Positions 14,500 through 26,366 of a stretch of 64,000 nt of DNA are shown here, piece after piece; position 1 is the stretch's first letter, and each line of letters starts with the position of its first letter. A program made the position numbers and the translations under genes. Source of the stretch: Oceanobacillus luteolus (GTDB taxonomy: Bacteria; Bacillota; Bacilli; Bacillales; Amphibacillaceae); assembly GCF_023715655.1 (NCBI RefSeq), contig NZ_JAMBON010000007.1, positions 1 through 64,000 on the forward strand, read 5' to 3'. The notes beneath the pieces are model-generated. The model was not told where the DNA came from, did no database searches, and saw only the letters and a program-made list of their open reading frames with translations.

Positions 14500-14592
14500 T
14501 ATTTATTGAAAGGCCACCCCGGGTTCATGACAATCTGGCCTGCAAATGGTAAAATAGGAAAAGTTTCAATTGTTCGCCTAATGGAGGTTACT

Positions 14593-15441
14593 ATGAAAAA
14601 AGTTGCTGTCATACAAGACTTATCATCCTTTGGAAAATGCTCATTAACAGCTGCGATACCTGTTCTTTCCGTTATGGGAGTGCAAGCATGTCCATTGCCA
14701 ACAGCGGTTCTTTCTGCACAAACGGGTTATCCTAGTTATTTCTGGGAAGATTTCACATCCAAAATGAATCAATTCACGGAAGAATGGAATAAGCTCGAGG
14801 TAACCTTTGATGGAATATTCACTGGCTTCGTAACAGGCGGGGAGCAGATCAATAATATATTCCATTTCTTGGACACCTTTTATAAAGAAGAAACACGTTT
14901 ACTCGTAGATCCAGTCATGGGAGATGACGGAGAAGTTTATGATATATTTAGCGACGGCCTGCTGGAGAGAATGAAGGACCTGGTGAAGCAAGCAGACGTC
15001 ATTACACCAAATGTAACCGAATGCTGCCTATTATCGGGGCTTTCCTTTGAAAAACTGCAGAACTACTCAAGTGCAGAAGATTACATGAAAGCACTGGAAG
15101 AAACAGGTAAACATCTGCGCCAAGCAACCGGAGCTGAAGTGATTATCACCGGCGTGAATCCCCCTGCGCTTCCTGGTGACAAGCAGTCCATTGGAAATCT
15201 TTATATTGATAAAAACAACGCCTTTTACCAAGGTATGGAATATAACGGGAAGAGCTATTCTGGTACTGGTGATTTATTTGCATCCGTCATTATGGGAAGT
15301 ATGATGCGTGGGGAAAACCTGAAAGATGCAGTCCAGCTTGCAGTAAAATTCCTCACTGAAGCTATTCATGATTCTTCGGTGGAAAGCGTCCCTGAAATCG
15401 AAGGAATTAATTTTGAAAAGTATTTGGGGATGTTGTTGTAA
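14593..15441 (+). CDS. pdxK: Pyridoxal/pyridoxamine kinase (PfkB-like ribokinase fold)
   Basis: 282 residues from the ATG at 14593, preceded by GGAGG at 14583-14587; the longer frame from 14506 has no site. The start KKVAVIQDLSSFGKCSL, the middle LLVDPVMGDDGEVYD and the C-terminal anion-hole segment SYSGTGDLFASVIMG are those of the pyridoxamine kinase family, which phosphorylates vitamin B6 vitamers with ATP to enter the PLP pool. The GTGD aspartate is the catalytic base. It is divergent from an ECF S component, making an uptake-and-trapping pair for vitamin B6. A YciI gene follows after 57 bases with no terminator between them. Confidence 0.85.
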   Translation: MKKVAVIQDLSSFGKCSLTAAIPVLSVMGVQACPLPTAVLSAQTGYPSYFWEDFTSKMNQFTEEWNKLEVTFDGIFTGFVTGGEQINNIFHFLDTFYKEETRLLVDPVMGDDGEVYDIFSDGLLERMKDLVKQADVITPNVTECCLLSGLSFEKLQNYSSAEDYMKALEETGKHLRQATGAEVIITGVNPPALPGDKQSIGNLYIDKNNAFYQGMEYNGKSYSGTGDLFASVIMGSMMRGENLKDAVQLAVKFLTEAIHDSSVESVPEIEGINFEKYLGMLL

Positions 15442-15781: not shown

Positions 15782-15823
15782 ACTACCCAAGTGAGGGATG
15801 CTGAGCTCCCTCACTTGGGTAGT
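15782..15823. terminator. Convergent terminator between the YciI gene and the HPS-like gene
   Basis: Perfect 17-base arms (15782-15798 and 15807-15823) around an eight-base loop. On the minus strand it continues TATTTTAG, so it chiefly ends the long sugar-acid operon. Confidence 0.85.
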
Positions 15824-15869: not shown

Positions 15870-16487
15870 TCAAGATATCATGTTCTTCATTTGCCGTGCT
15901 ACTTCTTTCGGATTATCCGCACCTGTAATGGCACTGCCTACAATTACAATATCCGGCTTCTCTTGAATGATTCGAGGAAGTGACTCCAAGTTCACGCCAC
16001 CGGCCACTGCAATTTTGAGGTCTAATCCTTTTACAAGGGAAAATAAATCAGTTTGAAAACCTTCCTGTTGCTGCCTGTCTTTTCCTAGATGCAGGCTGAC
16101 TAATTGAACACCCACTTTCGATAGCTCTTCCATGCGATTCCTTGAATCGACTTCAAGTAAATCAATCATAATTTCGCCGCCTGACTCCTCAGCAACTTCA
16201 AGTGTGTCTTTAATAGTCAAATCAGCTGAAAATGCCATAACAGTAGTAATATCCGCTCCAGCAGAGAAAGCCTGTTTTGCTTCATGTTTACCAGCATCAC
16301 AAGTCTTCATATCTGCTAAAATTTCATGGTTCGGATATCGGTTATGAATCTCCCTCACAATTGCCATACCATATTCTTTAATGACACCAGTTCCTACTTC
16401 AATGATGTCAATGCTTTCGCTCACCTCTTCGATTAATTGGAAACAACGATCCCACGATAGCCTGTCCAATGCTAGTTGCAGTTTCAT
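15870..16487 (-). CDS. 3-hexulose-6-phosphate synthase-like enzyme (OMPDC superfamily)
   Basis: 205 residues, a single beta-alpha barrel. The superfamily catalytic Asp-x-Lys-x-x-Asp is present in ADMKTCDAGKHE, with VEVGT-type IIEVGTG near the N-terminus and the phosphate-binding AVAGGVN and VIVGSAITG loops. HPS joins ribulose 5-phosphate and formaldehyde; sister enzymes (KGPDC: UlaD, SgbH) decarboxylate 3-keto-L-gulonate 6-phosphate. The loop that reads HTGxD in HPS and HRSRD in UlaD, from memory, is HLGKD here, and DAGK is closer to KGPDC, so the exact reaction is open. Overlaps the kinase gene by four bases (ATGA) and is the last gene of the operon; the paired isomerase lies at its other end. 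Confidence 0.75.
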   Translation of the reverse strand: MKLQLALDRLSWDRCFQLIEEVSESIDIIEVGTGVIKEYGMAIVREIHNRYPNHEILADMKTCDAGKHEAKQAFSAGADITTVMAFSADLTIKDTLEVAEESGGEIMIDLLEVDSRNRMEELSKVGVQLVSLHLGKDRQQQEGFQTDLFSLVKGLDLKIAVAGGVNLESLPRIIQEKPDIVIVGSAITGADNPKEVARQMKNMIS

Positions 16488-17440
16488 CGTTCGATCCTCT
16501 CAATCTCGCCGAGTTTTTCTCGTACTTCTTCATAATATGGGAGTCCCTCGTTATCCCCTACAACACTCACAACCATTGAGCCAATCGTATTACCGAAATG
16601 GAGCGTCTTTCCAAGCGGCCATTCATTTAGAATTCCATAAAGGACACCCGCATTGAATCCATCTCCTGCACCTACCGTGTCGACGACTTTATTAGCTTTC
16701 ACCGGTTTTGCATCAATGGTTTCACCATTGTAGTGCCCGACAGAGCCTTCACTGCCTTGTTTCACAGCGATAAAAGAGATGCCCATCGATTTCACCTTTT
16801 CAATGATTACATTCGGATCCTTCTCACCAATGATGATATCCATTTCTTCGGCACCAGCAAGCAGTATATCCACTTTAGGTAAGATGGATGATAAAACTTT
16901 CCTTGCTTCTTCTTTCGTCCACATCTTCAAACGAATATTCGGGTCAAAGGAAACAAGTAGATTATGTTTTTTCGCGAGTTCAATCGCCTTCTCCATCACT
17001 TCGATGTGAATATCACCAATAGCCGGATAGATGCCTGTAAGGTGAAGTATTTTTGCATCTTTAAAATATGCTTCATCCAGATCTTCAGGCGTTAATGTTA
17101 ATGTAGGAGACTTATCACGATAATAAAATGTCCGGACATTGCCGTCCGCCATAATCTCCTTAAAGTTCAAGGAAGTTGGGTATCCGTCGACAAACTCAGT
17201 ATGCGACATATCAATTCCTTCACCACGGGCAAAATTATAAATGTATTTTCCGAATTCATCATTGCCCAATCGGCTGATATAACCAGTTTTCAAACCAAGC
17301 CGAGCACAACCGATAGCGAGATTCAGTTCTGCGCCACCAATTTTCTTTTCAAATCCGTTTACAAATCTCATCGGCCCATTGGATTGGGGACTGAAGGCAA
17401 TCATCGCTTCACCTATTGTTATAATATCATTCATATTCAT
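16484..17440 (-). CDS. PfkB family sugar-acid kinase, 2-keto-3-deoxygluconate kinase type
   Basis: 318 residues. Ribokinase-fold marks: GEAMIAFSPQ at the N-terminus, IGGAELNLAIGCARLG, the KDG-kinase-like SFDPNIRLKMW, and the C-terminal catalytic VDTVGAGDGFNAG with its Asp base. KdgK phosphorylates 2-keto-3-deoxygluconate at O6 for cleavage by KDPG aldolase, which is encoded in the same operon. Related kinases act on 2-ketogluconate, and that alternative would fit the HPS-like and SIS genes better. AAGGAG precedes the ATG. Spacing to rpiA is 17 bases; it overlaps the HPS-like gene. Confidence 0.8.
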   Translation of the reverse strand: MNMNDIITIGEAMIAFSPQSNGPMRFVNGFEKKIGGAELNLAIGCARLGLKTGYISRLGNDEFGKYIYNFARGEGIDMSHTEFVDGYPTSLNFKEIMADGNVRTFYYRDKSPTLTLTPEDLDEAYFKDAKILHLTGIYPAIGDIHIEVMEKAIELAKKHNLLVSFDPNIRLKMWTKEEARKVLSSILPKVDILLAGAEEMDIIIGEKDPNVIIEKVKSMGISFIAVKQGSEGSVGHYNGETIDAKPVKANKVVDTVGAGDGFNAGVLYGILNEWPLGKTLHFGNTIGSMVVSVVGDNEGLPYYEEVREKLGEIERIER

Positions 17441-17457
17441 CTATCTCCTTACAAGTT

Positions 17458-18123
17458 TTACTTGCTTAAAATTTCTACTTTACCTTCTCTGGCAAGAATG
17501 ACTTTACTCGCCATCTCAGGGAATAGTCCCGTTTCAACTACCCCGGTCAAAGACTTCAATTGTTCATGGAGAGTCACTGGATTTTCAATTAAGTCGAACT
17601 TACAATCTAAAATATAATTACCATTATCGGAAATGAATACCCGACCATCCTTTTCCCTTGGTTCTGGGGTACATCCAAATGCAGCAATATACTCCATTGT
17701 CTTTTCATAACCGAAAGGAACTACTTCGACTGGTAATGGAAAGTTTCCCAACACGGATTTCACCTTTGATGAATCAGCAATGATTATCAATTCATCTGCA
17801 GCCTGATCAACAATTTTTTCTCTGACAAGGGAACCGCCTCCACCTTTTAAAAGATTCAAGCTTGAATCAACTTCATCAGCACCATCGATGGCAAGGTCAA
17901 TCTGCTTGGTTTCAGAGAAATCGGTTAATGGAATACCAAGTTCTTTTGCCAGTTTTTCCGTTTTAACCGAAGTCGGAATTCCTTTAATCTGAAGTCCCTG
18001 TTGCACCCGCTCTCCAAGTTTCCGCAACATATAGTTAACCGTTGAACCAGAACCTAGTCCAACTATCATTCCATCTCGTATATATTTGACAGATGCTTCT
18101 GCTGCTATCTGTTTATCCTCCAT
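17458..18123 (-). CDS. rpiA: Ribose-5-phosphate isomerase A
   Basis: 221 residues, the family length. The signature motifs are GLGSGSTVNYM near the N-terminus, the catalytic Asp region IDGADEVD, and KGGGGSLVREKIV. RpiA interconverts ribose 5-phosphate and ribulose 5-phosphate. Many Firmicutes use RpiB, and a housekeeping gene would not normally sit inside a TRAP-transporter operon, so here it is likely dedicated to consuming ribulose 5-phosphate made by the pathway. It lies between dctM (23 bases) and the kinase (17 bases). Confidence 0.9.
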   Translation of the reverse strand: MEDKQIAAEASVKYIRDGMIVGLGSGSTVNYMLRKLGERVQQGLQIKGIPTSVKTEKLAKELGIPLTDFSETKQIDLAIDGADEVDSSLNLLKGGGGSLVREKIVDQAADELIIIADSSKVKSVLGNFPLPVEVVPFGYEKTMEYIAAFGCTPEPREKDGRVFISDNGNYILDCKFDLIENPVTLHEQLKSLTGVVETGLFPEMASKVILAREGKVEILSK

Positions 18124-18146
18124 AGTAATTCACCTCTTAGCCGGTA

Positions 18147-19433
18147 TTAAAATAATGCCGGGTTGATCAATTTTGGAATATAAAATGCAATTTGCGGGAA
18201 GAACGCCACAAACAGTAATATAACCAAAATAATTGCAATATATGGTATCACTGCAACGAAAGATCTTTCCACAGACATATTCCCGATCTTCGCTGCGAGT
18301 AATAAACATAGACCATATGGTGGTGTGATAAGACCAATCGCAAGTGTAATGACAACAATAAGACCTAGGTGCACAGGGTCTATGCCAAACTCAAGGGCTG
18401 TCGGCAGTATGACAGGAACAAATAAAATCATTGCTGGAATCGCATCCATAAACGTACCGATAAATAGGAAGAATCCAATGATAATCAAAATGAACAGCCA
18501 TTTTGAACCGATATTGCTGTCAAAGAACTCTTGAGCCATAGCTCCTATCTGGTAATAACTCATCAGCTCACCGAGCGCACTGGCTGCTGCGAGAGCAAAC
18601 AATGACAAGGAACTTAGTGCAAGCGTATCCATTAAAATCCCTGATAAATCTTTTACTTTTATCGTCTTATAATAGAACATGCAAACTATTAAAGTATAAA
18701 TCGAAGCCACTGCAGCAGCTTCTGTTGCAGTAAAAAATCCACTGATAATACCGCCTATAATAATGACAGGTGTAAAAAGTGCTGGAATCGATTCTCCGAG
18801 TAATTTAAGGAATTTTTTAATTTCCACCCGTTCCGCTCGTGGATAATTGCGCTTAATCGCTACGATATAAACAAAAACCATCATTCCTACTCCTATGAGT
18901 ATCCCCGGAACAATTCCACCAAGAAACAAAGCACCAATCGAAGCATTCGTCAGTCCAGCGAAGATAATCATCGGGATACTTGGAGGAATGACAACTCCTA
19001 CCGTAGATGACGCAGCGGTAATCCCTACAGCAGTTTCTTTGTCATACCCTTTTTTCAGCATACTTGGAATAAGGATTTTCCCTACGCCTGCTGTATCTGC
19101 CTGAGCCGCCCCGGAAACTCCCGCAAACATCATGGAAACGAGAACGTTTGCATGGGCAAGACCACCGCGGATCGGCCCGACAATCGCTAAAGCAAGCTCA
19201 ATCAACTTTTCGGAAATCTTACCGGAATTCATCAGATTAGCTGCAAGAATAAATAACGGAACAGCGAGTAGAACGAAGGAGTCCAGTCCGTTCACCATTG
19301 ACATCGGCACCGTTGCTTCCGGTGTATATGGAATGCTGATAATACCAATTAAAGCAACGATCCCTATTACAAATGCAATCGGAACCCCAATAATCATTAA
19401 CACGAGAAATATAGCTAGAAGTAAAAAGCCCAT
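18147..19433 (-). CDS. dctM: TRAP transporter large membrane subunit (DctM type)
   Basis: 428 residues, strongly hydrophobic with about 12 membrane segments, including the family features PLFILAANLMNSG, GVSGAAQADTAGVGKILIP and IPPSIPMIIFAG. It forms the sodium-driven channel part of a tripartite ATP-independent periplasmic (here extracytoplasmic) transporter. TRAP systems of this kind import organic or sugar acids. It overlaps dctQ by one base. The substrate is set by the DctP protein and is not visible from sequence. Confidence 0.9.
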   Translation of the reverse strand: MGFLLLAIFLVLMIIGVPIAFVIGIVALIGIISIPYTPEATVPMSMVNGLDSFVLLAVPLFILAANLMNSGKISEKLIELALAIVGPIRGGLAHANVLVSMMFAGVSGAAQADTAGVGKILIPSMLKKGYDKETAVGITAASSTVGVVIPPSIPMIIFAGLTNASIGALFLGGIVPGILIGVGMMVFVYIVAIKRNYPRAERVEIKKFLKLLGESIPALFTPVIIIGGIISGFFTATEAAAVASIYTLIVCMFYYKTIKVKDLSGILMDTLALSSLSLFALAAASALGELMSYYQIGAMAQEFFDSNIGSKWLFILIIIGFFLFIGTFMDAIPAMILFVPVILPTALEFGIDPVHLGLIVVITLAIGLITPPYGLCLLLAAKIGNMSVERSFVAVIPYIAIILVILLFVAFFPQIAFYIPKLINPALF

Positions 19434-19918
19434 TACTCGATAACCTCCTTCGCTTTAACTGCTCTCACATGGTCAATCAGATGTGAAATGGAATAAACAA
19501 TCATCGTCAGTGCCATAATTGGAATTGCAATCCACACGTAACCCATCTTCATTTCCGGCAATGTCGCCCATCTGTAGTTCCAAAACTCTGTAACGACCTG
19601 CATGCCTAACAGGAAGATGACAAAATTGAAAACAATGAGCACTAAATCATTAAAAATGCTTAGTCCCGCTTTTTTCGCACCGGTCAATTTCTGTACAATA
19701 AAATCGAAGTTGAAATGTTCACGGCGATTAATCATAACTGCTGCACCCATGAATATTGCCCAAATGAATGAATAATTCGCCACTTCTTCTGTCCAGATGA
19801 TGGAAATACCGAGATGTCTCGTTATAATTTGCAGTACAATGACAAAAACGAAGATGCATAGAAACAAAACACCAACAGTCATTTGTATTTTTTCCAAAGT
19901 GTTTACAAACTTCTTCAT
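19433..19918 (-). CDS. dctQ: TRAP transporter small membrane subunit (DctQ type)
   Basis: 161 residues with four predicted membrane segments and the typical WTEEVANYSFIWAIFMGAAV segment after the second helix. It partners DctM in the membrane. It starts 19 bases after dctP and overlaps dctM by one base, the usual P-Q-M order. Confidence 0.88.
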   Translation of the reverse strand: MKKFVNTLEKIQMTVGVLFLCIFVFVIVLQIITRHLGISIIWTEEVANYSFIWAIFMGAAVMINRREHFNFDFIVQKLTGAKKAGLSIFNDLVLIVFNFVIFLLGMQVVTEFWNYRWATLPEMKMGYVWIAIPIMALTMIVYSISHLIDHVRAVKAKEVIE

Positions 19919-19937
19919 GTTTCTCTCCCCCTAACCC

Positions 19938-20954
19938 TTACTCTAAATCTCTGATCTTTTGAAGTAATTCTTCAGCTTCAATCTCCTTTACGAACTCATC
20001 TAAAATCGGTTCAGCCACTTCAATAAATGGTTCACGATCAATTTCGTTCACGACTGCACCTTCTTCAATTGCTTTTTCTTTATATTCAACATCCTGCGTA
20101 TTCGTCGCTTCTCGTTCCGCAATCACCGATTCTTCGGCAGCCTTCAAAATAATTTCCTGATAGTTTTCAGGTAGGTTATCAAATTTCTCCCCATTAAACA
20201 AAACGAGTCTTGTCGTAAAGTCATGTGCAGTTTCCGTTATATACTTACCGTTCGGCGTTGTATGGTGCGCTTGCTGCACGAAGAACGGGTAAGCGTTTTC
20301 AGACGAGTCAACAACATCCTGCTGTAATCCTTGGTAAAGCTCTCCCCAAGAAATAGATGAAGGAATTGCACCTGTCGCTTGCCAGAAGTCAGAAATGACA
20401 CCTGATGTTTGTGTCCGGAGAGAAACCCCTTTTAGGTCATCAATCGATTCCAATGGCTTTTTCCCATAGAAATGTCTGACACCAGCAGTCCAATAACCTA
20501 GTACTTTAAAGGAGTTATTCGACTTTTCATTAATAATCTCGGCCATTTCTTCCCCAACTGGCCCATCAATGGCACGAAGCCAGTGATCATAACTTTTAAA
20601 CAAATAGGGTGCTGATAAAATATCAACTTCTCTAATACCTGTCTGTGTCATCAATCCCGGCGAAACGACTACGAGGTCGGCTGCACCCAACTGAAGTTTC
20701 TCGACAAGTTGGGATTCTTCTGTACCAATCGTTCCAGCATGGACTTCGACTTCAATTTTTCCGTCGGATTCATTTTCTACGACTTCTTTAAATTTCAATA
20801 ATCCTGTCTGATAAGGATTATCAGGCGATGTCTGGTTATGAGCGGCAATCAATTTGATTGTTCCGTCCGCCTCCACTTCCAGTTCATCCGTTCCACAGGC
20901 AGATAATAAAAACACCATCAGCAATCCGAGTATGACCATAAAACTCTTACGCAT
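19938..20954 (-). CDS. dctP: TRAP transporter solute-binding lipoprotein (DctP type)
   Basis: 338 residues. The signal peptide ends in a lipobox (LLSAC), so it is tethered outside the membrane, as expected in a Gram-positive. The DctP fold is shown by GADLVVVSPGLM, the carboxylate-binding arginine region GVSLRTQTSG, and WGELYQGLQQDVVDSSENAYPF. That Arg (in LRTQ) clamps a carboxylate, so the ligand is an acid, most likely a sugar acid given the linked kinase and aldolase. It follows the KDPG aldolase gene with only a one-base gap. Confidence 0.88.
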   Translation of the reverse strand: MRKSFMVILGLLMVFLLSACGTDELEVEADGTIKLIAAHNQTSPDNPYQTGLLKFKEVVENESDGKIEVEVHAGTIGTEESQLVEKLQLGAADLVVVSPGLMTQTGIREVDILSAPYLFKSYDHWLRAIDGPVGEEMAEIINEKSNNSFKVLGYWTAGVRHFYGKKPLESIDDLKGVSLRTQTSGVISDFWQATGAIPSSISWGELYQGLQQDVVDSSENAYPFFVQQAHHTTPNGKYITETAHDFTTRLVLFNGEKFDNLPENYQEIILKAAEESVIAEREATNTQDVEYKEKAIEEGAVVNEIDREPFIEVAEPILDEFVKEIEAEELLQKIRDLE

Positions 20955-20955
20955 G

Positions 20956-21600
20956 TTACAAACCCCTTTCGAATGCTTTCACTTTATCTGTATACTGTTT
21001 CGCAACAGCAGTTAATTTCTCGTAATCTTCTTTCGTATTCAATTTTCCTGCGTTTACGAGATTGCTCCCAATACCGACCGCAGCACTTCCCTTCGCAAGG
21101 TATTCCGTCATATTATCTAGCGTAATACCTCCTGTCACCATTGCTTTAACATGTGGCAGTGGACCGAGAATATTTTTTACATAATTTGGTCCAAATGTCC
21201 CCGCAGGGAAAATTTTGACCATTTCAGCACCGTGTTCATAGGCAGTTACTATTTCTGTCGGGGTGAGCACTCCTGGAATATTCAAGATCCCGTATCGGTT
21301 TGTCAGTTTCAGCGTTTCCGTGTTCAATGTAGGCGAAACGATGAAAGAAGCACCCGCCATAATGACAGCCCTTGCCGTTTCCGTATCTAGCACTGTCCCT
21401 GCCCCAATGTTCATTCTATCTCCGACATGTTTTACAGCTGTTTCAATGATGTGAAGGACCCGTGGTGTTTCTGCAGTAATCTCGACAGAATTGATTCCTC
21501 CTTCATGAAGCGCTTCCAATATAGGCACAATATTTTCTTCATTTGCTTTTCTGATAACGGAGACCACTTTCTCCTGTTGGATTTGTTGTTCTATACTCAT
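20956..21600 (-). CDS. eda: KDPG/KHG aldolase
   Basis: 214 residues. Class I aldolase barrel with the catalytic Glu in SVEITAETP, GAGTVLD, and the Schiff-base lysine in EMVKIFPAGTFGP; the phosphate-binding VTGGITLDNM and GIGSNLV follow. It splits 2-keto-3-deoxy-6-phosphogluconate to pyruvate and glyceraldehyde 3-phosphate. With the KDG-type kinase it makes a complete route for imported 2-keto-3-deoxygluconate. It is separated by 11 bases from the SIS gene and by one base from dctP. Confidence 0.88.
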   Translation of the reverse strand: MSIEQQIQQEKVVSVIRKANEENIVPILEALHEGGINSVEITAETPRVLHIIETAVKHVGDRMNIGAGTVLDTETARAVIMAGASFIVSPTLNTETLKLTNRYGILNIPGVLTPTEIVTAYEHGAEMVKIFPAGTFGPNYVKNILGPLPHVKAMVTGGITLDNMTEYLAKGSAAVGIGSNLVNAGKLNTKEDYEKLTAVAKQYTDKVKAFERGL

Positions 21601-21611
21601 TGATATCGCTC

Positions 21612-22169
21612 CTATTCTAAATTGGCGTGTTTTTGATTCAAACTTGTATGGCTGCTTTCGTCTTTATACTTTTCAAGAAGATAAACGATGACTGCATCGA
21701 GCAATAAATGTGCCGATTGGTCAAACTGATTGCCAAGAGGCTGGATCGTATCCGGTTCCATCCCTGTCCGCTTTTTTGTAGCAGCAGGGATGATGAGAAA
21801 CTGGTCGCTGTAAGCACCTATTTTTGATGCTTTATTCGTTGTTACAAGCGCGGTTCTCGCATCAATTTCCTTTGCCTTCTTTGCATAGTTGACCAGCGAA
21901 CCTGTACTTCCCGAGCCTGAAATAAGAATAAGTAGATCATCAGAAGCAATGCTTGGTGTGATTGTTTCACCAACGACGTATACAGAATAACCCGCATGCA
22001 TGAGCCGCATGGCAGATGTTTTCCCAATTAATCCGGAACGGCCCGTCCCTGCAATGAAGATCCGGTTTGCCTCTCTCATGGCTTCGGCAAGTTGGATTGC
22101 TTCTTCGGAATTCACTTTGGCTAGAACTTCGCTGACTTCTGCAGCAACAGTATGAATGATATTATTCAT
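21612..22169 (-). CDS. 6-phospho-3-hexuloisomerase-like SIS-domain protein
   Basis: 185 residues, one SIS domain. The sugar-phosphate-binding GTGRSGLIGKTSAMRLMH, VVGETITP and ISGSGSTGSLVNYA motifs match HxlB, and the protein ends in HANLE as the Bacillus subtilis HxlB does in my memory. The IQPLGNQFDQ segment has Asp where HxlB has Glu (FEQ), close to the active site. PHI moves the carbonyl between C2 and C3 of a hexulose 6-phosphate. It overlaps the LacI gene by 8 bases, so regulator and enzyme are coupled. The usual hxlA-hxlB pair is split to the two ends of this operon. Confidence 0.8.
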   Translation of the reverse strand: MNNIIHTVAAEVSEVLAKVNSEEAIQLAEAMREANRIFIAGTGRSGLIGKTSAMRLMHAGYSVYVVGETITPSIASDDLLILISGSGSTGSLVNYAKKAKEIDARTALVTTNKASKIGAYSDQFLIIPAATKKRTGMEPDTIQPLGNQFDQSAHLLLDAVIVYLLEKYKDESSHTSLNQKHANLE

Positions 22170-23190
22170 TTTGCATCAACCTTTCTTCAGATGATTCTCT
22201 CACGATAATTTTTGGTTCGAAACGATGCACTTCCGGCTCGATCTTTCTATTTTTCCCTTCCATCAATTCGAAGAGGACTTGAACGGCTTTCTTCCCCATT
22301 TCAAATGTCGGTTGTTCAATTGTCGTCAGTGTTGGATTATAGATGCTTGCATAGGAAACATCGTCAATCCCGATAAGTGCCATTGTTTCAGGTATGTTTA
22401 TGTCATTTTCCTTCGCATATTTCAATATTTCCAACAATGTCCGGTCATTAATCGCAAGTACCGCTGTTGGAGGATTAGGCAGGGCAAGAAAATCCTTCAA
22501 CTTGTCCTTGATACTAGAAATTTTACCGTCGATAATGTAATCCGGATTATATTCTATATGATGTTTTTCCAGTGCTTTTTTGAATCCTTCCAACCGCTCT
22601 AGTCGTGGCGTCACTTTTGTCTCCAATGGAGGAGAAACCAATCCGATCTGGCGGTGGCCGTTTTTCACAAACTCATCGACTGCCAATTCAGCGGCAAGCT
22701 CATTGTCCAGTAAAATCGAATGGACAGGAACTTCTGGCAACAACCGATCCATAAAAACAACTGGATAATTACTTTTCTTGATTTCCTTATATAGCTCAAC
22801 ATTTCCACCAGTAGGAAACACGATAATTCCATCTACTTGTTTCGCTCGGAGCATCTCAATATATCTTTTCTCTTTGACTGGGTCATCTTCTGCATTACAG
22901 ACGATGACATGAAAATCTCTCTTATTACAATAATCTTCGATAGCCCGAATAACCTGAGTCGAGAACACGTGCAAGATATTCGCAACAATGACTCCAATTG
23001 TGGAGGATGTTTTCTGTTTTAAACCTCTGGCCAGAATGTTCGGCTGATAATTCAATTCGATAATCGACTGTTCAATTCGCTTTCTAGTTTTACTGCTCAT
23101 ATAATCGAAGCGATTATTTAAATACTGGGATACGGTACTTTTCGACACGTTAGCATGTTTTGCTACGTCTTCAATTGTAGTTCTTTTCAT
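22162..23190 (-). CDS. LacI family repressor of the sugar-acid operon
   Basis: 342 residues. N-terminal helix-turn-helix and hinge (TTIEDVAKHANVSKSTVSQYL, then NYQPNILARGLKQ) followed by a periplasmic-binding-type effector domain with VPVHSILLDNE and IGIDDVSYASIYNPTLTTI. LacI proteins usually respond to the sugar or a phosphorylated intermediate. It is the first gene of the operon, so it would control itself and the eight downstream genes through the palindromes at 23207-23240. AAAGGTG lies before the ATG. Confidence 0.9.
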   Translation of the reverse strand: MKRTTIEDVAKHANVSKSTVSQYLNNRFDYMSSKTRKRIEQSIIELNYQPNILARGLKQKTSSTIGVIVANILHVFSTQVIRAIEDYCNKRDFHVIVCNAEDDPVKEKRYIEMLRAKQVDGIIVFPTGGNVELYKEIKKSNYPVVFMDRLLPEVPVHSILLDNELAAELAVDEFVKNGHRQIGLVSPPLETKVTPRLERLEGFKKALEKHHIEYNPDYIIDGKISSIKDKLKDFLALPNPPTAVLAINDRTLLEILKYAKENDINIPETMALIGIDDVSYASIYNPTLTTIEQPTFEMGKKAVQVLFELMEGKNRKIEPEVHRFEPKIIVRESSEERLMQNE

Positions 23191-23206: not shown

Positions 23207-23240
23207 TTTACTAAACCGATTTAGTAAACCGATTTAGTAA
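23207..23240. promoter_or_regulatory. Two overlapping LacI-type operators in tandem
   Basis: The 13-base word TAAACCGATTTAG occurs at 23212-23224 and directly again at 23225-23237. The first lies in a 22-base near-palindrome (23207-23228, TTTACTAAA and TTTAGTAAA around CCGA) with the central CG of LacI operators. It begins 17 bases upstream of the repressor gene start, so it overlaps the leader and should give autoregulation of the whole operon. Confidence 0.75.
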
Positions 23241-23253
23241 GAGTTTACTATAA

Positions 23254-23268
23254 AAGAAAGCGCTTTAC
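23254..23268. promoter_or_regulatory. cre-like element upstream of the LacI operon
   Basis: GAAAGCGCTTT is a perfect 11-base core of the cre palindrome, but the outer bases (A before, AC after) deviate from the consensus. It is 14 bases upstream of the LacI operators, the position of a promoter. Confidence 0.4.
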
Positions 23269-23362
23269 AAGGGGTTTTTATGAAATTTTGAATATTTAGG
23301 GTAAAAACGCACTCACATTGAGAAAACAATCCAATGTCATATTAATAGAAGAGATAACAATT

Positions 23363-23468: not shown

Positions 23469-24926
23469 CTATTTCATCTCTCTCAACACAGCCACAAAGT
23501 ACTCCCAATTATTCAACATCGACGGGATGCTCACATGTTCATTTGGAGTATGTACATCATACATATCCGGACCAATCGAAATGGCGTCTAAACCAGGAAT
23601 TTTCTCAATGAAGATTCCACATTCGATCCCTGCGTGCACGGCGATAATTTCAGGATCTTTTCCTTCTCGTTCCTTATATACTTTTTCAAATAATTGACGT
23701 ACTTTGGAATCTGGATTGTATGGCCATTCTGGATAATCAGAGGTGACTGTAAACTTGCAGTCTAGAATTTCAGCAACGAGCTTAGATTGATCAGCTATTG
23801 CATATTTGCGGCTTTTCACGGAACTTCTTGCATCACTTTCAATGATAATGGAGGAGTCCGTTGTTTCAAGTTTTCCTACATTAACCGAAGTCTCCACTAG
23901 CCCTTTGATATCCAAGCTCATATTCTGAATTCCATTCGGCAATAACATCAGTGCCTTAATTACCTTCTGTTTAGTTTCGTCCGAGAAACATGTCGCCGCT
24001 GAATTTTCGGCTTGCTTCAATTCAACGAAAACATTCGGATCAGAACTCGCAAACTCAAGCCTCAGAGTATTTGTCCACTCTTCTAATTTCTCACGTAACT
24101 TTGCCACTTCGGCTTCCGGCAATGCAATTGTAATGATTGCTTCACGAGGGATTGCATTAGATGCCATACCGCCGCGTACATGCTGGACGACAAATTTAAA
24201 GTCAGTGGATAAGTCATACAATAGACGTCCCATTAATTTAAGCGCATTTCCTCTTTCTTGGTCAATTTCCATTCCAGAATGTCCACCGATTAAACCTTTT
24301 ACCGCTAGTTGGAAACTCACGTATTCCGAAGGCAGATTTTCTTCTATTAACGGTATCTCCAAAATGGTCTGTAATCCTCCTGCACTGCTGACCAATAGTT
24401 TACCGTCTTCCTCCGAATCAATATTGATTAAAATTTTCCCTTCAAAATGACTCGGATCAACGGATAATGCACCGTTCATCGTCGTTTCTTCTTCTGTCGT
24501 AATAACAACTTCTAATGCTGGATGTGGGATATCCTTTGCATCCAACAACGCTAATGCATAAGCAACCGCGACACCATTGTCCGCTCCAAGTGTAGTATCT
24601 GTAGCGTGTAACATATCATCTTCAATTCGTAACTTTAATGGATCTTTTTTAAAATCATGGATGGTTCCATCATTTTTCTCGCAAACCATATCCATATGAC
24701 CTTGGATTATAACGGCCGTTGCCTGCTCGTACCCTTTTGTAGCAGGCTTTTTGATAATAACATTTAATGCTTCATCTTGAATGACTTCCAGTCCACGTTC
24801 ATGTGCAAAGCCGACTAAATAATCACTGATTTCTTTTTCATTCCCTGAGCCTCTCGGGATCTGGGATATTTCATAAAAGTACTTAAATATTGGGTTCTCT
24901 ATTAGTTCCTCTAAACTAGCATACAT
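23469..24926 (-). CDS. pepD: Aminoacyl-histidine dipeptidase (M20C, PepD)
   Basis: 485 residues, the PepD length. Di-zinc site motifs are IIQGHMDMVCEKND, LGADNGVAVAYALALLD and ITTEEETTMNGA, and a lid-domain GLIGGHSGMEIDQERGNA is present. PepD hydrolyses carnosine-like and other unspecific dipeptides in the cytoplasm. GGAGG lies before the ATG. It follows a YfcC-type transporter by 24 bases, so the two are probably one operon for uptake and cleavage of small peptides or amino-acid derivatives. Confidence 0.88.
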   Translation of the reverse strand: MYASLEELIENPIFKYFYEISQIPRGSGNEKEISDYLVGFAHERGLEVIQDEALNVIIKKPATKGYEQATAVIIQGHMDMVCEKNDGTIHDFKKDPLKLRIEDDMLHATDTTLGADNGVAVAYALALLDAKDIPHPALEVVITTEEETTMNGALSVDPSHFEGKILINIDSEEDGKLLVSSAGGLQTILEIPLIEENLPSEYVSFQLAVKGLIGGHSGMEIDQERGNALKLMGRLLYDLSTDFKFVVQHVRGGMASNAIPREAIITIALPEAEVAKLREKLEEWTNTLRLEFASSDPNVFVELKQAENSAATCFSDETKQKVIKALMLLPNGIQNMSLDIKGLVETSVNVGKLETTDSSIIIESDARSSVKSRKYAIADQSKLVAEILDCKFTVTSDYPEWPYNPDSKVRQLFEKVYKEREGKDPEIIAVHAGIECGIFIEKIPGLDAISIGPDMYDVHTPNEHVSIPSMLNNWEYFVAVLREMK

Positions 24927-24950
24927 CGATTGTTCCTCCTTTTATCACAA

Positions 24951-26366
24951 TTAGTATACCCACACAAATGAATGTACAACGAGAAGGAAAATTAGACCTA
25001 CCGCATAAAGGATGAGGATTAACGGAATGAAAAAACGCGCCCATTTAATCCATGATAATCCTGCCAGAGCCAAACTAGCCATCAAATGACCATTGGTAGG
25101 AGTAAGTGCATTGGAAATTCCATCACCAATTTGGAACGCTAAAACGGCAGTTTGTCTGTGCACTTCAAGCAAATCAGCTAAAGGTGCCATAAGCGGCATT
25201 GTTAATGCAGCCTGTCCACTTCCCGAACTGACGATATAGTTGATGGCACTCTGTACACCAAAAATTCCAGCAACTGCAAATGTGGATGGAAGACCTTCAA
25301 CTAACCCAGCTAATGAATGTACGATCGTATCAATTGTATTGGCATTTTCCAAAATGACTACTGCACCATGCGCCAATCCGACAGCAAGTGCTGCAACGAC
25401 CATATCATTACAACCTTTAGTAAATGATTCGGCAATTTTATTATCATTCATCTTCGCAATGATCCCTACAATAACTCCCATGATTAAAAATAGGGATGCA
25501 ATTTCCTTCATATACCATCCATATTTAATGATACCAAAAGGAATAATGATAATGGTAAGGAGAAAAGCGAGTAAAATAACAATTTTGCTTTTCGTTAATG
25601 AATGATTGGACGTCACTTTTTCACCTTGTGGAATCAACTGTCCATCACCATAAACAAGACTTCTCGCCGGATCCTTCAATACCTTTTTAGCATATCTCAT
25701 GACATATAGACTCGCCACGATGATCAATACTGCTAGTAGTACAATCCGGACAGACATCCCCGAGAACAATGGCAATTCGGAAATGGTTTGTGCCACCCCT
25801 AAATTAAATGGATTTGTAACAGCTCCCGCATAGCCAATGGACGTACCAATCATCGGAGTAGCGACTGCGATGATTCGGTCAAATCCGAGTTTCAATAAGA
25901 AAGGCAACAGGATAATCAAGTATGGAATACTCTCTTCCGCCATTCCAAACGTTGCCCCACAAATCGCAAAAAATGTCATTAATATCGGAATCAGGTAAAT
26001 TTCATTACCATTCAGTTTTGTAATCAACCGGTTAAATAGTGCTTCAATTGCACCAGTAGCTGTTAAAATACCAAATGATCCACCAACGATAAATAATAAG
26101 AAGACGATATCAGCACTTTGGACCATTCCATCAAATACAGCAGTAAAAATATCTAAAAATCCAGCTGGGTTTGCTTCGGTTTCTTGATAGGTCCCATTGA
26201 TGACGACCGTTCTTCCATCTTCATTGACTTCCCGTTCATATTCACCAGCCGGAATAAAATAAGTTGTGATTGCTAAAAGAACAATAATGCCAAATAAAAT
26301 GATAAACGTATGTGGTATTTTTGATTTTTCCTTGAATTTCGGTTCCTGAGGTTTTTCAGCCAACAT
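24951..26366 (-). CDS. YfcC family membrane transporter
   Basis: 471 residues with about 12 membrane segments. IPHTFIILFGIIVLLAITTY followed by IPAGEYER at the N-terminus, GMAEESIPYLIILLPF and SAINYIVSSGSGQAALTMP near the C-terminus are characteristic of the YfcC/ArcD-like part of the C4-dicarboxylate/ion transporter superfamily. Members are poorly characterised; those linked to peptidase genes are thought to carry amino acids or peptides. The adjacent pepD gene supports that. Divergent from the small protein gene at 26594. Confidence 0.75.
   Translation of the reverse strand: MLAEKPQEPKFKEKSKIPHTFIILFGIIVLLAITTYFIPAGEYEREVNEDGRTVVINGTYQETEANPAGFLDIFTAVFDGMVQSADIVFLLFIVGGSFGILTATGAIEALFNRLITKLNGNEIYLIPILMTFFAICGATFGMAEESIPYLIILLPFLLKLGFDRIIAVATPMIGTSIGYAGAVTNPFNLGVAQTISELPLFSGMSVRIVLLAVLIIVASLYVMRYAKKVLKDPARSLVYGDGQLIPQGEKVTSNHSLTKSKIVILLAFLLTIIIIPFGIIKYGWYMKEIASLFLIMGVIVGIIAKMNDNKIAESFTKGCNDMVVAALAVGLAHGAVVILENANTIDTIVHSLAGLVEGLPSTFAVAGIFGVQSAINYIVSSGSGQAALTMPLMAPLADLLEVHRQTAVLAFQIGDGISNALTPTNGHLMASLALAGLSWIKWARFFIPLILILYAVGLIFLLVVHSFVWVY

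Follow-up and report, generated by a model that had tools for sequence, protein, structure and literature searches.

Diverged HPS and PHI as candidate enzymes of a 2-ketogluconate pathway without a reductase in Oceanobacillus luteolus

A stretch of 64,000 nucleotides of Oceanobacillus luteolus DNA (here called the window; contig NZ_JAMBON010000007.1 of assembly GCF_023715655.1, positions 1 to 64,000 of the forward strand) contains an operon of nine genes on the minus strand (15870-23190) that includes relatives of hexulose-6-phosphate synthase (HPS) and phosphohexuloisomerase (PHI), the enzyme pair of the ribulose monophosphate (RuMP) pathway. Our data point toward a redox-neutral pathway that proceeds via diverged HPS and PHI and degrades a 2-keto-aldonate, with 2-keto-D-gluconate as the most likely substrate, and we consider this reading probable. 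It is best described as a new, reductase-free variant of 2-ketogluconate catabolism. This description is supported because the same pair stands in the place of the reductase KguD in kgu-like operons, where a KguK-like kinase and, for the most part, KguE/KguT are retained, because the active sites of both enzymes differ from those of classic HPS and PHI, and because the two types of operon share an operator that is absent from classic loci.

In the model that we infer for substrates, reactions, effector and direction of flux alike, the TRAP transporter would import the 2-keto-aldonate and the PfkB kinase would convert it to 2-keto-6-phosphogluconate. Since this compound is fructose 6-phosphate with C1 oxidized to a carboxylate, it suits an enzyme of the PHI family, and the PHI-like isomerase would shift its C2 carbonyl to C3. 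The HPS-like enzyme, acting like 3-keto-L-gulonate 6-phosphate decarboxylase (KGPDC), would then turn the 3-keto acid into D-ribulose 5-phosphate and CO2, the enediolate being protonated and no formaldehyde added, and RpiA would interconvert ribulose 5-phosphate and ribose 5-phosphate. The 2-keto-3-deoxy-6-phosphogluconate (KDPG) aldolase would serve 2-keto-3-deoxygluconate (KDG), possibly accepted by the same transporter or kinase, and the LacI protein, bound to the TAAACCGGTTTA operators, would keep the operon repressed in the absence of the keto acid. A preliminary description had guessed the kinase step, the C2-to-C3 shift and the decarboxylation that bypasses the reductase from the chemistry, and the comparison reported here now lends them support. 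Among the matches listed in searches of open-license papers in PubMed Central, none describes the proposed route; the routes already described are reduction of 2-keto-6-phosphogluconate by KguD (PMC11678583) and reduction of free 2-ketogluconate (PMC11837542).

The features of the operon are as follows.

15782..15823, minus strand: site resembling an intrinsic terminator, with a 17-pair stem, directly 3' of the HPS-like gene (sequence scan)
15870..16487, minus strand: HPS-like protein of the OMPDC/HUMPS suprafamily, proposed 3-keto-6-phosphogluconate decarboxylase; Lys136 replaces the Tyr/Leu of HPS (family search, residues)
16484..17440, minus strand: PfkB kinase, proposed 2-keto-aldonate 6-kinase, with a TSLN motif (profile search, motif comparison)
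17458..18123, minus strand: RpiA, ribose 5-phosphate isomerase A, accessory (family search)
18147..19433, minus strand: DctM, TRAP large permease (family search)
19433..19918, minus strand: DctQ, TRAP small permease (family search)
19938..20954, minus strand: DctP, TRAP solute-binding protein with a lipoprotein-like N terminus (by eye), proposed 2-keto-aldonate binder (family search)
20956..21600, minus strand: KDPG/KHG aldolase (Eda), accessory (family search)
21612..22169, minus strand: PHI-like SIS isomerase, proposed 2-keto/3-keto-6-phosphogluconate isomerase; F-D-Q replaces F-E-Q (family search, residues)
22162..23190, minus strand: LacI-family repressor (family search)
23209..23239, minus strand: two overlapping operators, TACTAAATCGGTTTACTA and TACTAAATCGGTTTAGTA, 13 bases apart, immediately upstream of lacI (read from the sequence)
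23254..23269, minus strand: cre-like site TGTAAAGCGCTTTCTT, possible CcpA site (by eye; imperfect match to the consensus)

Our check of the open reading frames agrees with the preliminary description in gene order, overlaps and small gaps, and the nine proteins fall into the families OMPdecase/HUMPS, PfkB, RpiA, DctM, DctQ, DctP, KDPG/KHG aldolase, SIS and LacI. With the operators and the cre-like site before lacI and the terminator-like stem after the HPS-like gene, the unit looks bounded.

Conservation of the operon and its counterpart in kgu-type loci

An HPS match is present in 79 of 159 genomes of the family. In 50 of the 159 it is full length with at least 47% identity (one has an internal stop), and two further genomes hold broken pieces of this type. 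The operon is mostly retained around these genes (39 neighborhoods in the family). A named collection of 80 window-type loci, taken from 179 relatives, comes partly from the same genomes, so that the residue surveys of the two sets overlap. In the 80 loci, pfkB (79), phi (78), lacI (78), dctM (78), dctP (77) and dctQ (75) lie on the same strand as hps; both loci that lack phi (L109 and L129) stop at contig ends, and for the missing pfkB of L101 no reason was found. Counted in the same way, eda is present in 60 and rpiA in 39 loci; on either strand, 37 loci have both, 23 have eda only, 12 have rpiA only and 8 have neither. Three of the 20 loci without eda (L109, L129 and L161) are cut short. 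The near-constant core thus consists of the LacI repressor, the TRAP transporter, the PfkB kinase and the HPS-like and PHI-like proteins, whereas eda and rpiA are variable. The operon is conserved in Bacillaceae, and its presence in many genomes argues that the arrangement is not due to chance. We saw the opposite of otherwise conserved neighborhoods without HPS and PHI, a pattern that the preliminary description had regarded as contradicting it; however, every locus except L204 was found via HPS, so that the constancy of hps is a result of selection and only that of the other genes is informative. Also, the placement of the HPS-like and PHI-like genes at opposite ends of the operon, true of the window, is no general rule: hps adjoins phi directly in 40 of the 80 loci, which makes their separation in the window a local, lineage-specific arrangement.

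The family has a second HPS group, with 36 to 44% identity, which co-occurs with the type of at least 47% identity in 18 of the 50 genomes. As classic controls we used 7 to 19 kb around such genes (16 loci) and, for residue counts, 23 classic HPS rows; L077 (new type) and L089 to L091 (KGPDC-like, 26 to 30%) were left out of this set.

A search across the phylum, for which 398 genomes were drawn evenly from the larger group and 17 fetched stretches were inspected, revealed a second group of pairs with Lys in HPS and Asp in PHI at the positions discussed below. One of its loci, L199, has the gene order KguE-like, PfkB kinase, major facilitator superfamily (MFS) transporter, eda, lacI, hps, phi, and 16 of 295 genomes of one family, again drawn evenly, have a 50 to 57% match to its HPS. 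With 15 loci newly fetched from these genomes, and L194, the kgu-type set came to 22 loci of 11.6 to 20 kb. The yardstick was an annotated kgu operon comprising PtxS, the epimerase KguE, 2-ketogluconate kinase (KguK), an MFS protein labeled tartrate transporter and 2-ketogluconate 6-phosphate reductase; a second annotated operon has the same layout, and both have the reductase and no HPS/PHI. A kinase 44 to 56% identical to KguK, the sole kinase query of this survey, is present in 22/22 kgu-type loci and is called KguK-like on account of this identity and its Gln motif (see below). Furthermore, a KguT homolog with 63 to 67% identity is found in 13 of the 22, and KguE is a gene of its own in 10 loci and forms a fusion with the kinase in another 6. 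A homolog of the reductase KguD was found in none of the 22 loci at an E value of 1e-3, the rest of those genomes not having been searched, a limit that has to be set against our reading. On a plasmid of Lacticaseibacillus paracasei, the annotation lists a sugar phosphate isomerase/epimerase, a gluconate:proton symporter, a sugar kinase, a HUMPS family protein, hxlB, KDPG aldolase and LacI. This plasmid set was found through a KguE query. L204 was found with a KguE query, and its KguE is therefore not independent evidence. Judged by homology and gene content, the pair occupies the place expected for the reductase in recognizable 2-ketogluconate operons; this is the strongest evidence for the pathway, and it comes from outside the window. 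Among the window-type loci, 8 of 80 have a KguE homolog about 7 to 8 kb upstream of hps.

Four loci with the kgu-type pair and a KguK-like kinase (L077:2337-7794, L205:2565-9700, L208 and L211) have a phosphotransferase system (PTS) EIIBC component in place of KguT (by Pfam in L077, by eye in the others), and also a conserved protein of 542 to 547 amino acids (without a Pfam match in L077). Possibly, these loci serve the import and cleavage of a glycoside of the same acid.

The operator connects the two types of operon. Of 77 operons (the window and 76 of the 80 named loci), 71 have TAAACCGGTTTA with at most one mismatch in the 300 bases that precede lacI, whereas 50 mononucleotide shuffles averaged 0.06 and never exceeded 1. 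It is found anywhere in the locus in 19 of the 22 kgu-type loci (0, 1, 4, 0 and 0 loci in five shuffles), the shuffles preserving base composition only, and in none of the 16 classic loci. In five of the 11 kgu-type loci inspected site by site, it is doubled at the 13-base spacing seen in the window. PtxS is reported to bind TGAAACCGGTTTCA with 2-ketogluconate as effector (PMC11678583), and the core of this palindrome, AAACCGGTTT, is found with at most one mismatch in 72 of the 77 operons, the flanks being different. On sequence grounds, the operator common to the two types of operon comes near the PtxS palindrome; as other LacI-type repressors may use similar cores, this ties the two operon types together more firmly than it proves the effector.

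In Tenuibacillus multivorans (L123:3516-16097) the operon lies near genes resembling those for gluconokinase and 6-phosphogluconate dehydrogenase, that is, another route to ribulose 5-phosphate, and a 2,5-diketogluconate-reductase-like gene lies upstream. A Gfo/Idh/MocA oxidoreductase (e.g., L118:10996-11970) is present in 21 of the 80 loci, in 14 of these within 1 kb of the hps start; it has no close relatives among characterized families, stays below every NCBIfam cutoff and clusters in these 21 loci only, and we rejected it as a pathway enzyme and keep it as accessory. One window-type operon (L140) stands in a record labeled Roseburia sp. 1XD42-34, a label that is probably wrong. In the window itself, the genes flanking the operon at 14506-15441 and 23469-26366, which comprise a pyridoxamine-kinase-like gene, one for an M20 peptidase and, by eye, one for a large permease, seem unrelated to it.

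The imported acid

DctP is best matched by other solute-binding proteins of TRAP systems, most of them listed without a ligand; several are presumably uronate binders, a point to which our reading gives no weight. Seven of the 80 loci combine an Ldh_2 dehydrogenase with a divergent DctP (26 to 29% identity, compared to at least 42% in the 70 other loci having DctP), and three of the seven also have UxuA. In one locus, L170, the extra genes are those for an Ldh_2 protein, an MDR dehydrogenase, mannonate dehydratase (UxuA) and mannonate oxidoreductase (UxuB), with a single kinase. The natural reading of the Ldh_2 loci would be that an aldonate or uronate is imported and the 2-keto acid is made inside the cell: where the imported acid differs, as the divergent DctP would suggest, an enzyme that may make the keto acid is present. 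In L170, the sole kinase of the operon would need to act on KDG as well, unless another kinase elsewhere does so.

It is conceivable, although unlikely, that the same chemistry acts on another 2-keto-aldonate, such as 2-keto-D-galactonate or 2-keto-L-gulonate, and yields another pentulose 5-phosphate. The TRAP transporter of the window differs from KguT, and some of the loci lack rpiA. Furthermore, the 2-ketogluconate kinase of C. necator phosphorylates not only 2-ketogluconate but also 2-keto-D-gulonate and 3-deoxy analogs (PMC6651773), a broad specificity that also makes it plausible that a single kinase serves both branches of the proposed pathway. However, where RpiA is linked, it points to D-ribulose 5-phosphate, and the operator and the enzyme pair are common to the kgu-like operons.

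Active-site residues and the kinase motif

Sequence matches of the window's proteins to solved HPS, KGPDC, PHI and KDG-kinase proteins are strong, and a few residues set the pair apart from its classic relatives. Residue 136 of the HPS-like protein falls in the alignment column of KGPDC Arg139 and of Leu or Tyr137 in HPS (Table 1 of PMC5980557). It is Lys in 80/80 named window-type and 21/22 kgu-type proteins and Tyr in 23/23 classic ones; in the overlapping family set, Lys136 is found in 39 of 40 rows, the window included. In our alignments, solved HPS-like proteins have Leu, Ile or Thr in this column. According to Table 1 of PMC5980557, characterized HPS enzymes have an uncharged Tyr/Leu at active-site column 20 and, in addition, Pro34. 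At position 34, window-type relatives have Gly (78/80, as in the window) or Ser (2/80) and classic HPS has Pro (23/23), and at position 185, Ser (78/80; Ser185 in the window) stands against Gly (23/23). In PHI, the motif is NQFDQ (as in the window), SQFDQ or, once, SSFDQ in 78/78 window-type proteins; the Asp of F-D-Q is found in these 78 and in 22/22 kgu-type proteins, whereas 16/16 classic loci have SLFEQ, with Glu.

Membership in KGPDC is not indicated: in place of the signature Glu112, Arg139, Thr169 and Arg192 (labels of PMC5980557, Table 1), the window has Asp109, Lys136, Ala162 and Ser185. The HPS-like protein also stays below the KGPDC model cutoffs (125 of 250 bits needed). We take it that His136 and Arg139 of KGPDC hold the waters that protonate the enediolate after loss of CO2, and Lys136 is a residue that a decarboxylating relative of HPS might be expected to carry.

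These residues also bear on the alternative that the pair is an ordinary RuMP formaldehyde module for detoxification or assimilation, co-transcribed by chance with a KDG catabolic operon, which we consider quite improbable. Both proteins do exceed the NCBIfam equivalog cutoffs (269 versus 200 bits for HPS, TIGR03128; 224 versus 160 bits for PHI, TIGR03127), and the operon HPS is the only HPS match in the genome (4.0 Mb, 206 contigs), which at an E value of 1e-3 has one HPS, one PHI and one Eda match, all within the operon. However, the window-type proteins form a separate clade with different active-site residues, and the additional HPS of 36 to 44% identity in 18 of the 50 carrier genomes has Tyr136 in all nine of these genomes that were fetched. 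The pair is, moreover, retained where eda is missing (20/80 loci, three cut short), and the 16 classic loci, over their 7 to 19 kb, never have the kinase or the TRAP transporter. Because the clades are split, the residues differ and 16/16 classic loci lack homologs of the other seven genes (pfkB, lacI, the TRAP genes, eda and rpiA), we reject a formaldehyde module as the main explanation and, with it, the combination of KDG catabolism and formaldehyde handling that the preliminary description had offered as its alternative.

Classic HPS genes themselves are clustered in three loci of the window's genus (four open reading frames in L079, three plus fragments in L080 and three in L088), which suggests a recent amplification of the formaldehyde module. 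Outside the window's class, L187 (4800-12400) and L188 hold an HPS/PHI pair with the motifs VHTAVD and GNLFE in a different sugar operon, with a glucose-6-phosphate-isomerase cupin (Pfam) and, by eye, ABC transporter, FGGY-like kinase, ribokinase-like and DeoC-like genes; this is perhaps a third use of HPS/PHI.

The kinase of the window falls under every NCBIfam cutoff, the top model being KDG/KDGal kinase with 229 of 400 bits needed, and the genome has two further PfkB matches (32% and 25% identical to it), the nearer of which adjoins apparent sucrose-type genes, as judged by eye without a family search. Solved KDG kinases have Tyr at a motif position (TG-L/I-Y in alignments) that presumably contacts the substrate. 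At this position, the 22 kgu-type kinases and the annotated KguK all have Gln (TGFQ), and the 82 kinases of the named loci have Asn (73), His (6) or Tyr (3), those linked to hps being Asn in 73 and His in 6 of 79. The three Tyr kinases (TG[IV]Y) belong to L137, L145 and L164; in each of these loci the Tyr kinase is a second one, located before eda, and a TSLN kinase precedes hps.

The kinase motif speaks to the possibility that KDG catabolism (TRAP-KdgK-Eda) is the main function and that the HPS/PHI-like proteins act on some side product. It would be consistent with eda in 60 of the 80 loci, with an Eda that exceeds both cutoffs in the window (163.7 versus 27.8 bits for PF01081; 183.1 versus 156.05 bits for TIGR01182), with the resemblance of the kinase to KDG kinases and with L170, where UxuA and UxuB would make KDG and one kinase only is present. 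Nevertheless, we regard it as very unlikely, since eda is absent from 20 loci that retain hps (L109, L129 and L161 being cut short) and the KDG-type kinase, where present, is a second gene beside eda. Reverse operation of the RuMP pathway as in archaea, from fructose 6-phosphate to ribulose 5-phosphate and formaldehyde and via RpiA to ribose 5-phosphate, with separate TRAP and KDG genes, would agree with the linkage of RpiA on the same strand in 39 of 80 loci but is scarcely credible, as the kinase and the TRAP transporter would be unneeded yet are nearly constant, toxic formaldehyde would be released and the residue changes would be left unexplained.

Evidence on the other side, origin of the pair and known systems

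A number of observations weigh against the proposed 2-ketogluconate pathway. Neither KguE nor KguT is among the nine genes of the window operon, and a 2-keto-aldonate as the TRAP substrate is itself deduced. The PtxS flanks are unmatched, GAAACCGGTTTC occurring with at most one mismatch in 0/77 operons. Position 136 has exceptions, Ile in L070 (47% identical; one of the 40 family rows) and Val in the kgu-type L200, and Asp109 and Ala162, found in all 80 window-type proteins, are the residues of HPS and not those of KGPDC (Glu and Thr). The window kinase is 43% identical to an eda-linked KDG-type kinase but 37 to 39% to KguK; because KguK itself is 41% identical to the eda-linked kinase, the lowest kgu-type identities (44 and 45%) say little alone. 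The window's genome has five 2-hydroxyacid dehydrogenase matches (29 to 35%), the best KguD-like one having 35%. Dehydrogenases of this kind also cluster in 8 of the 80 loci. We rejected this cluster as KguD, as six members (35 to 37%) come from one Cytobacillus-like group and L132 has 29%, but the eighth, a KguD-like gene of V. indicus (L097) that is 52% identical to the Klebsiella reductase and lies about 8 kb from hps on the opposite strand, has to be counted against the pathway and indicates that the bypass may not be exclusive there. Finally, the operon carrier Gracilibacillus timonensis (L128) is reported as negative for acid from potassium 2-ketogluconate (PMC6485780); O. massiliensis, which may or may not carry the operon, is also listed as negative. 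Tests of this kind carry little weight in halophiles with acid production from few sugars, yet the result for G. timonensis stands against our reading.

A tree of 56 rows (19 window-type, i.e., the window and 18 named loci; 22 kgu-type; 12 of the 23 classic; 3 KGPDC-like), from which archaeal and methylotroph HPS were left out and in which KGPDC_L091, K_L204, K_L077, K_L213 and K_L214 were flagged as long branches, resolved each type as one group: window type (99/95), kgu type (95/84), classic HPS (100/100) and KGPDC-like (100/99). The window type and classic HPS were joined at 94/80, which is under the starred level. With the root on the KGPDC side, Lys136 would more simply be the older state. 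KGPDC has reportedly been the subject of engineering toward HPS. One may tentatively go further and imagine that pairs with Lys in HPS and Asp in PHI make up a reductase-free 2-ketogluconate pathway in several Firmicute families, combined with no fewer than four kinds of transporter (TRAP, KguT, gluconate-type symporter and PTS), and that the decarboxylating, 2-keto-acid type came first, loss of Lys136 then giving rise to the formaldehyde-fixing HPS of Bacillaceae. The order of events in this doubtful extension is read from the tree: with the root on KGPDC, the first branch leads to the kgu type, and the window type and classic HPS are sister groups.

If our model is true, there is a further route for an oxidized sugar acid that needs no reductant, releases one CO2 and forms pentose phosphate directly. 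Proteins annotated as HxlA/HxlB would then have two activities that we believe to be new, those of a 2-keto/3-keto-6-phosphogluconate isomerase and of a D-3-keto-6-phosphogluconate decarboxylase. A simple rule, based on Lys or Tyr at position 136 of HPS and on Asp or Glu in the PHI motif, would correct annotations and avoid false calls of formaldehyde assimilation, and the idea that the RuMP enzymes arose from the KGPDC side would become testable.

Among known systems, the KDG branch of the Entner-Doudoroff pathway (KdgK-Eda) shares Eda and a related PfkB kinase with the operon, in which, however, Eda is dispensable and the kinase motif differs from that of KDG kinases, three loci holding both kinases. 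The HPS (HxlA) and PHI (HxlB) of the RuMP pathway belong to the same sequence families, are likewise paired and act on a D-arabino sugar-phosphate backbone, but the window-type pair has Lys136, Gly34, Ser185 and the F-D-Q of PHI, is linked to a kinase and a TRAP transporter and would release CO2 rather than add formaldehyde. With KGPDC, the HPS-like protein has in common a positive charge at the Arg139 position and, as proposed, the decarboxylation of a 3-keto-aldonate 6-phosphate; it is not a member, having D109 and A162 as in HPS and Ser185 for Arg192, and its product would be of the D series instead of the L series. The kgu operon (KguE-KguK-KguT-KguD with PtxS) resembles ours in its LacI-family repressor with a AAACCGGTTT-core operator, its PfkB-type kinase and its acid transporter, and KguE itself occurs in 8 of the 80 window-type loci and in 16 of the 22 loci of the kgu type. 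In contrast to the kgu operon, KguD is not among the nine genes, HPS-like and PHI-like proteins standing in its place, TRAP is used in the window rather than KguT, and the pathway would run without an NADPH step to ribulose 5-phosphate, not to 6-phosphogluconate.

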